Below, one piece after another: positions 3,537-5,597 of a stretch of 5,597 bases of DNA. Source of the stretch: a bacterium (GTDB taxonomy: Bacteria; Bacillota_I; Bacilli_A; RF39; UBA660); contig SFTR01000076.1 of the NCBI GenBank assembly GCA_004560915.1, positions 1 to 5,597 of the forward strand, given 5' to 3'. The notes below the pieces were generated by a model. It did not search any database, was not told where the DNA came from, and was given only the letters and a program-made list of their open reading frames with translations. The position numbers and the translations under genes are program-made. Position 1 is the stretch's first letter. Every line of letters begins with the position of its first letter.

Positions 3537-3559
3537 TAATAGCGAAGGTAAGTGATTAT

Positions 3560-5125
3560 ATGAAAAAAGATATTAAACTTGTATTTGAAGATGGCACTGA
3601 AATGTCATTAAGTAGAGGTATAACTGTTAGAGAAGTATTAAAACTACTAGGTAATGATCAAGTTATTGCTTTAAGAGTAAATGGTAATGCACAAAATGCT
3701 GACTTTGAAATTATGGATGATGCATATATTAACTTTATAACAGTAGCTGATAGAACTGGTAGAAAAATATACACAAAAGGTCTACAATATGTATATTTAA
3801 TGGCAGTTAAAGAATTATATGAAGATAAAGCAACTGTTAATATTAAACATTCTATTGACAAAGCTATATATACTGAAATAGATATGAAAAGACAAGTTGA
3901 TAGAACAGTGGTTAATGAAATAAAGAAAAAGATGAAACAAATTATAAATCAAGATCTTCCATTTAAGAATATTAGTGTTTCAAGAAAAGATGCATATGAC
4001 TATTGTAGTAACTTAGGAGAAAAAGAAAAGTGTTTAAATTATACATATATGACTAATGATTCAGTTACATTATATGAACTAGGTGACTCTTATAATTATT
4101 TCTATTATATAATGCCTGCATCTACTGGAATACTTAAGAGATTTGATTTAACTTACGTATCACCTAATGGTGTAGTACTTAGTTTTCCCATTAATAATGT
4201 TGTTCCTAAATATAATCATATACCACTTGTATTAAATGCATTTAAGACATATGAAAAGAGACTTTCTGATTTAGGAGTTAGGTATGCAGGAGAAGTAAAT
4301 AAAATAGTATGTAAAGGTGAAATAGCTGATTTTATTCAAACAAATGAAATACTTTATGATGAAAATATGCAAGCAATAGCTAATAAAGTAGTAGAAAATA
4401 GAAATATTAAAGCTATATTTATATCTGGACCATCATCAAGTGGTAAGACAACAACATCTAAAAAACTTGCTTTATATTTAAAAGCTAATGGAATAGATAG
4501 TTTAGTTTTATCAACAGACGATTACTTTGTAGAAAGAGTAGATAGTCCTCGTAAAGCTGATGGAAGTTATGAATATGAATGCATTGAAGCATTAGATACT
4601 AAGTTATTTAATATGCAATTAAAGAGTTTACTTGCTGGTAAAGAAGTAGTAGTACCTACGTATAATTTTATTACTGGTGAGAAAGAATATAAACGTAAAC
4701 CAACCATGTTAAAAGAAAATCAAGTGTTAATTATAGAAGGTTTGCATGCAATAAGTGAACAAATGAATTCTTCAATAGAAAAGAAAAATAAGTTAAAAAT
4801 ATATATTAGTCCATTTACGCCAATAGGTCTTGATAGACATAATCATATATCAACAACTGATTTAAGACTTTTAAGACGTATGGTTAGAGATTATAAAACT
4901 CGTGGTTATTCAGCACAACATACATTAGATAGTTGGATAGGTATGAGAGATAGTGAAGAGATGTATGTATATCCACATCAAATGGAAGCAGATGTTATAT
5001 TAAATACATCACTTGCTTATGAGATAGGTGTTCTTAGAACTTATGCGGAACCATTACTTTATTCAATTAGTAAGGTTTCACCTAATAGCAATAAGAATAT
5101 TAAATTTCTTAAAATGTTTTGTTAG
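3560..5125 (+). CDS. TGS-domain uridine kinase family protein, frameshifted at the C-terminus
   Basis: 521 residues as read. Residues 1-65 are a TGS-like domain as in threonyl-tRNA synthetase (EDGTEMSLSRGITVREVL). About 70-280 resemble the following synthetase-related region, with KHSIDKAIYTEI at 96-107. The kinase domain starts near 283: P-loop GPSSSGKTT (290-298), STDDYF (318-323), Walker-B-like IIEGLH (391-396), and TTDLRLLRRMVRDY (432-445). The family is annotated as uridine kinase or phosphoribulokinase-like; uridine phosphorylation to UMP is the usual annotation, but the real substrate and the role of the TGS part are not shown by sequence. The start is ATG 3560, after AAGG at 3545-3548; a TTG at 3515 lies inside the promoter. 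The stop TAG at 5123-5125 comes about 24 residues early; the expected C-terminal tail is in another frame (5121-5195). A full product would have 544 residues. gapA follows closely, so the two probably share a transcript. Confidence 0.9.
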   Translation: MKKDIKLVFEDGTEMSLSRGITVREVLKLLGNDQVIALRVNGNAQNADFEIMDDAYINFITVADRTGRKIYTKGLQYVYLMAVKELYEDKATVNIKHSIDKAIYTEIDMKRQVDRTVVNEIKKKMKQIINQDLPFKNISVSRKDAYDYCSNLGEKEKCLNYTYMTNDSVTLYELGDSYNYFYYIMPASTGILKRFDLTYVSPNGVVLSFPINNVVPKYNHIPLVLNAFKTYEKRLSDLGVRYAGEVNKIVCKGEIADFIQTNEILYDENMQAIANKVVENRNIKAIFISGPSSSGKTTTSKKLALYLKANGIDSLVLSTDDYFVERVDSPRKADGSYEYECIEALDTKLFNMQLKSLLAGKEVVVPTYNFITGEKEYKRKPTMLKENQVLIIEGLHAISEQMNSSIEKKNKLKIYISPFTPIGLDRHNHISTTDLRLLRRMVRDYKTRGYSAQHTLDSWIGMRDSEEMYVYPHQMEADVILNTSLAYEIGVLRTYAEPLLYSISKVSPNSNKNIKFLKMFC

Positions 5126-5195
5126 TATACCAAGTGAATATGTACCACATACTAGTGTACTTAGAGAATTTATTGGAAATAGTTATTTTGAATAG
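5121..5195 (+). pseudogene. Out-of-frame C-terminal tail of the kinase gene
   Basis: In the +1 frame, 24 codons from GTT at 5121 to GAA at 5192, then TAG at 5193-5195, encode VSIPSEYVPHTS followed by VLREFIGNSYFE. From memory of the family, full-length homologues end with very similar sequence (FLKMF, then PSEYVP and LREFIGGS). Dropping one T from the T4 run at 5117-5120 joins ATG TTT directly to this frame. The tail has no internal stop or other damage, and its stop overlaps the AGGAG of gapA, as expected for the original gene end. It has no ribosome site or start codon of its own. Confidence 0.85.
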
Positions 5196-5198
5196 GAG
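5194..5198 (+). promoter_or_regulatory. Ribosome binding site of gapA, overlapping the ancestral kinase stop
   Basis: AGGAG lies 9 nt before the ATG at 5208 and overlaps the TAG (5193-5195) that ends the out-of-frame kinase tail. This spacing suits translational coupling when the kinase is read to its full length. No promoter was recognised between 5126 and 5207. Confidence 0.8.
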
Positions 5199-5207
5199 AT
5201 GAAATAA

Positions 5208-5597
5208 ATGTTAAAAGTAGCAATTAATGGTTTTGGTAGAATAGGAAGAACTGCACTTAGATTACTTGAGGACGATAAAGATATAGAAGTGGTGGCAATT
5301 AATGATTTGACTGATCCGGTTCAACTTTCATATTTATATAAATATGATTCAGTTCATAGAACTAATAAAAGCAAAATAAGTTTTGATGAAGACGAGTTAT
5401 TTGTAAAAAATAGACGCATTAAAGTATATGCTGAAAGTGATCCATCTAAACTTCCATGGAAAAAGCTTGGAGTAGATGTTGTTCTTGAATGTACTGGTGT
5501 ATTTACTTCAGTAGAGAAATGTCAAGCTCATATAGATGCTGGTGCGAAACATGTAATTATTAGTGCGCCTGCTAAAGATGAAGCTAAAACAATTGTA
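5208..5597 (+). CDS. gapA: Glyceraldehyde-3-phosphate dehydrogenase, N-terminal part (3' partial)
   Basis: 130 residues are visible; the frame is open to the window end. It starts MLKVAINGFGRIGR, the Rossmann glycine motif binding NAD. INDLTDP near 32-38 contains the aspartate that favours NAD over NADP. YKYDSVH (44-50), ECTGVFTS (94-101) and HVIISAPAKDE (116-126) are family landmarks. The catalytic cysteine (about residue 150) lies beyond the window. The enzyme oxidatively phosphorylates glyceraldehyde 3-phosphate to 1,3-bisphosphoglycerate in cytosolic glycolysis. The start is firm (AGGAG 9 nt upstream). Unlike the cggR-gapA operon of Bacillus, no CggR-type regulator precedes it; the kinase gene does, with 12 nt between its ancestral stop and this start, suggesting co-transcription. 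The symbol assumes the glycolytic paralogue. Confidence 0.96.
   Translation, partial: MLKVAINGFGRIGRTALRLLEDDKDIEVVAINDLTDPVQLSYLYKYDSVHRTNKSKISFDEDELFVKNRRIKVYAESDPSKLPWKKLGVDVVLECTGVFTSVEKCQAHIDAGAKHVIISAPAKDEAKTIV

Follow-up and report, generated by a model that had tools for sequence, protein, structure and literature searches.

A net loss of 8 nt displaces the conserved C-terminal tail of a uridine kinase-like gene in a Bacilli contig

The kinase gene and its surroundings

The window, by which we mean the whole analysed stretch of 5,597 nt, opens with an M23 peptidase gene truncated on its 5' side, followed in turn by an open reading frame of unknown function, the genes that we take to be whiA and clpP (the latter on the minus strand), the kinase gene considered here and the start of gapA. 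Relatives match the M23, whiA, clpP and gapA genes over all or nearly all of the length these have within the window, in a comparison whose rows were chosen by the kinase tail motif and which is not counted as a test of the presence of the tail. The reading frame at 1005-1958 (317 aa), sitting between the M23 gene and whiA, matched no Pfam or NCBIfam family at E 0.001 when scanned from position 981, and tblastn found no relative of it in the 15 loci L001-L015, in several of which M23 and whiA lie close together. It has 22 homologues, the best 98% identical and of the same length, and on its sequence it looks like a lineage-specific conserved gene. One of the relatives' loci (L005:1540-3653) carries the M23 (PcsB-like) peptidase gene in two tandem copies upstream of whiA.

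The features needed for the discussion of the kinase gene and its end are the following.

3560..5086, + strand: nucleoside (uridine) kinase-like gene, in-register part, frame 0, 509 residues
5086..5087, + strand: junction of the net 8-nt loss, where the reading frame leaves the family register (comparison with P0001, MAFFT)
5087..5125, + strand: 12 out-of-register codons (SNKNIKFLKMFC) and the stop TAG at 5123-5125 (comparison with P0001)
5088..5195, + strand: displaced family C-terminus, 35 codons plus TAG read in the +1 frame (P0001 residues 513-547)
5117..5120, + strand: TTTT, blamed earlier, not the lesion (relatives' loci, DNA alignment)
5194..5198, + strand: AGGAG, resembling a ribosome site for gapA and overlapping the displaced kinase stop (sequence)
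5208..5597, + strand: gapA (GAPDH), 5' part, leaving the window at its 3' end (PF00044, 131.3 bits)

The closest homologue of the kinase is P0001 (547 aa, 98% identical, representing a cluster of 100 member sequences), found among the best 120 of 7900 matches to a query that started at 3557, one codon ahead of the ATG at 3560. Over the in-register part 505 of 509 residues are identical between the two, with differences at 63, 70, 92 and 281. The window kinase scores 83.9 bits against PF00485 (PRK/uridine kinase), above the Pfam gathering score of 22, and 83.7 bits against TIGR00235, the NCBIfam udk equivalog, below its curated cut-off of 220.3. Its translation contains GPSSSGKTT, which we take to be the P-loop and which corresponds to P0001 residues 290-298, invariant among 40 homologues. 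Sequence and fold searches point to N-terminal parts of threonyl-tRNA synthetase (ThrRS) and to uridine-cytidine kinases, and the family profile places the ThrRS match at positions 4-198 and the uridine-cytidine kinase match at 286-482; as judged from these matches, a ThrRS-like N-terminal part is followed by a PRK/uridine kinase domain. A length of 545-549 aa is found in 146 of the 160 homologues inspected. Two homologues that are 92% identical, P0002 and P0003, measure 560 aa against 547 and have the same C-terminus, their extra residues probably being N-terminal and stemming from an upstream start call.

Position and size of the lesion

An earlier note on this DNA had described a single-base frameshift, one extra T within TTTT at 5117-5120, that removes the conserved C-terminal tail of an otherwise normal kinase. 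Its reading of the end of the gene holds: frame 0 stops at the TAG at 5123-5125 immediately after KFLKMFC, 82 nt ahead of the gapA ATG at 5208, and the +1 frame encodes the family tail, reaching as far as the gapA ribosome site. The loss of the tail by frameshift thus stands; the size and place assigned to the change do not. Frame 0 leaves the family after the codon at 5084-5086 and is not normal up to FLKMF, and from 5088 the +1 frame is identical to P0001 513-547 at 35 of 35 residues, an identity in a shifted frame for which chance is no explanation. Because P0001 has three residues (510-512) between the two matching blocks and the window has a single base, a net 8 nt are missing from the kinase gene at 5086/5087. 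This site lies roughly 30 nt upstream of TTTT, before the segment 5114-5195 to which the change had been assigned. The +1 frame is open from 5028 to the TAG at 5193-5195, the nearest upstream stop lying at 5025.

DNA comparison gives the same picture. A MAFFT alignment with six relatives (it takes in 6 of the 12 loci submitted, and one strand was searched) has one 8-nt gap, at 5086/5087; the rest of the aligned coding part is free of gaps. Seventeen loci inspected as DNA (L001-L017), among which loci of six of the twelve genomes submitted to MAFFT recur under different numbers, show no equivalent 8-nt loss. The closest DNA relatives of the window are uncultured Bacilli-type MAGs, the closest full-length ones being about 72% identical to the window kinase at the protein level and a partial gene (in G004) 79%. 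For some relatives the record gives goat omasum, goat cecum or 'Lapin' as the sample, which makes a gut origin of the window likely.

What, then, made the T run look like the lesion? In the family register TTTT is the last base of a Cys codon followed by a Phe codon. Frame 0 over 5102-5122 reads KFLKMFC and the +1 frame over 5103-5123 reads NFLKCFV, so that 'FLKMF' is an out-of-register look-alike of the family's 'FLKCF', and frame 0 therefore seems to track the family up to that point. An extra T in this run in a gene otherwise normal could draw on this resemblance, on one relative (L008) that does read FLKMF in frame, and on the fact that the +1 frame would equally be entered after a single-base change at that point. 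It has, in our view, practically no chance of being correct: four of 15 relatives have the same four T in the homologous place, in frame as Cys-Phe (the other 11 use other codons), the DNA alignment is free of gaps at the run, and the match to P0001 has by then already passed from frame 0, which differs at residues 510-515, to the +1 frame, which agrees from 5088 on. The two P0001 blocks, the DNA alignment and the relatives' in-frame T run together led us to reject it.

The lost tail and the search for a shared ending

The frame-0 product would be 521 aa long, made of 509 normal and 12 out-of-register residues, and the final 38 residues of the family are missing from it. Among 40 aligned homologues 13 of these 38 positions are invariant, compared with 66 of 197 in the kinase domain, so by this alignment measure the lost part is as conserved as the kinase domain itself. 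When P0001 was modelled with AlphaFold2 (mean pLDDT 90.1), residues 510-520 formed a helix beginning at the lesion, and the pLDDT block means came to 86, 89 and 87 over 511-540 and 66 over 541-547; the lost tail is accordingly predicted by the model to be mostly folded. Because the missing part is a conserved and probably folded end of the kinase, we infer that the 8-nt loss would abolish or strongly weaken the function of this allele. In six family genomes, among the matches listed, REFIG is directly followed by the natural end of the protein; the last few residues of the tail are therefore dispensable in some relatives, unlike the ~30 before them.

The tail motif is present in all of the 120 listed homologues, the best 120 of 7900 matches in a ranking that tends to pick full-length proteins, and all 40 of a second set have it as well. 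In the window it is present solely in the +1 frame, and the window thus lacks the in-frame tail of a full-length kinase of its lineage. A stricter pattern at the lesion residues is matched by 118 of the 120, the two misses, P0043 and P0051, being single substitutions rather than gaps. The window's own final 41 residues, used as a query, returned 99 matches, 59 already known and 40 new. Proteins ending naturally at FLKMF without the tail, which the earlier note had named as an observation that would refute its frameshift, were sought among the 160 homologues inspected, and none ends as the window does; these homologues are representatives at 90% identity, each of whose clusters could conceal a sharer. 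Substring matches to the shifted end were limited to P0139 (at residue 278) and P0153 (at residue 279), in both cases far from the C-terminus. That the kinase family has a natural short form was considered and rejected, no such form being present among the inspected homologues, 160 of 160 of which have the tail motif.

Genomes give a similar answer. In the relatives' genus 16 of 18 genomes have the frame open to residue 547 and no internal stop, counting the partial gene of G004, which is matched from residue 266. The remaining two, G296 and G301, gave no good kinase match (one weak and partial, one none), reflecting either gene loss or an incomplete genome. In the wider family a kinase match was obtained in 270 of 291 genomes, and at least seven rows, among the matches listed, have one stop inside the match: six are the natural REFIG ends and one is an in-frame stop within the tail. 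The latter, in G161 (L070, G161:C50; 43% identity), lies at codon 513, near P0001 residue 519, and beyond it the tail continues in the same frame up to another stop. A nonsense change, a tolerated truncation or an error could account for it; being a stop codon and not a frameshift, it differs from the change in the window, and with G161 as an example tail stops may occur elsewhere in the kinase family. The viral contigs searched encode no relative, phage records gave no megablast match, and among plasmid records there were 16 matches, none of which reached 60% identity. The literature searched contained no paper pairing 'uridine kinase' with 'TGS domain'.

Real deletion, artefact or recoding

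Our preferred reading, to which we would give a probability of about 0.6, is a recent real deletion in the kinase gene; the leaning over an artefact is a matter of judgement. Both a recent mutation and a sequence error had been named before as causes of the frameshift, and they are the likely ones here also. In the scenario that we favour, a strain-level net loss of 8 nt at 5086/5087 would shift the kinase frame, from 5087 the ribosome would read 12 out-of-register codons up to the stop at 5123-5125, and the resulting 521-aa protein without its tail would have lost, or strongly weakened, kinase function. Translation of gapA might at the same time be slightly uncoupled, yet it would retain its own ribosome site. 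The kinase stop precedes the gapA ATG by 11-17 nt in 15 of 15 relatives; in the window the displaced stop precedes it by 12 nt and the frame-0 stop by 82 nt. All 130 aa of the gapA part are matched, at 78-93%, in 15 loci. On this spacing, an effect of the lesion on kinase-gapA translational coupling is possible. The deletion would be recent, as the displaced tail has no residue that differs from P0001.

The same unchanged tail, 35 of 35, is equally what an artefact of assembly or sequencing would leave behind in an organism whose gene is intact. Let us assume such an artefact: the loss would then be confined to a single contig, as it is, with none of the 160 homologues sharing the ending, and intact close copies would exist, as they do in the P0001 cluster of 100 sequences. 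Indel errors do occur in long-read MAGs, according to one report (PMC8103633). We consider an artefact a serious possibility, though one short of even odds. What speaks against it is the kind of change: A or T runs of five or more are absent from 5020-5130, and the 5086/5087 junction has no microhomology (judged by eye from the relatives' letters), so that a loss of 8 nt would be an atypical read error. Homopolymer errors usually amount to 1-2 nt, and a loss of 8 nt is an unusual size for an error. Nor is further reading-frame damage seen across the 5.6 kb; the contig does not appear error-rich, because the M23, whiA, clpP and gapA genes and the 1005-1958 frame are matched in the length held. 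Recoding, also raised by the earlier note, would have the two frames joined by +1 ribosomal or transcript slippage within 5087-5122 into a protein with its tail. The +1 frame is indeed open over the overlap 5028-5122 and intact to 5195, a slip anywhere in 5087-5122 would yield the tail, and a slip at TTTT would by coincidence preserve four residues of FLKCF (F, L, K and F) ahead of it; an open +1 frame is, however, expected after any recent deletion. The relatives need no shift, with their single open frame to 547, and no two-frame layout or shift site was found conserved in the 18 genus genomes. The product of a TTTT slip would lack three residues and still be shifted over 510-518: it would have 11 out-of-register residues in place of 14 (510-523), only F, L, K and F matching the family, and would still lose E512, A513 and R515, which are invariant among 40 homologues. 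The absence of A or T runs of five or more weighs against slippage too. With no conserved layout and with a TTTT slip failing to restore residues 510-518, recoding was rejected as extremely unlikely. That the loss is real and yet tolerated, either by slippage within the 12 overlapping codons or through a functional truncated enzyme, we consider very unlikely; if it were true, the kinase could do without its conserved tail or would acquire it through chance frameshifting, and the stop near residue 519 in G161 would be a second, independent case.

The frameshift is real in the sequence as given, ordinary in kind, and alone it matters little, concerning one contig and one metabolic gene from what is likely to be an uncultured relative of the Bacilli. 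It does carry a caution, as the likeness of FLKMF to FLKCF displaced the apparent lesion by about 30 nt and hinted at recoding. If the loss is real, as in the recent deletion that we prefer, the window would offer a natural truncation allele with which to probe the role of the conserved kinase tail.

Lastly, we compare the locus with known systems. Ordinary frameshift mutations and assembly indels are a known kind of change in metagenome contigs, and the window resembles such cases in being one contig whose flanks match intact relatives in different frames; it differs in that 8 nt without a homopolymer exceeds the common error of 1-2 nt. Programmed +1 frameshifting is exemplified by prfB, with which the window shares two overlapping frames and a stop near a slippery-looking run. 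Unlike prfB-type frameshifting, however, the shift here comes from an 8-nt loss seen in the window only, and the layout is not conserved. Compared with the PF00485 family, the window kinase is longer, having an extra N-terminal part and, in its lineage's version, a C-terminal tail. TmUK, as described in one study, is a three-domain uridine kinase of T. maritima with a threonyl-tRNA synthetase-like part, which reportedly showed no NMP-forming activity in that study's screen (PMC10248530). By that description, TmUK-type kinases and the window kinase are alike in combining a ThrRS-like part with an NK/PRK kinase domain, and the window copy differs from them in that the final 38 residues of the version found in its own lineage are missing.
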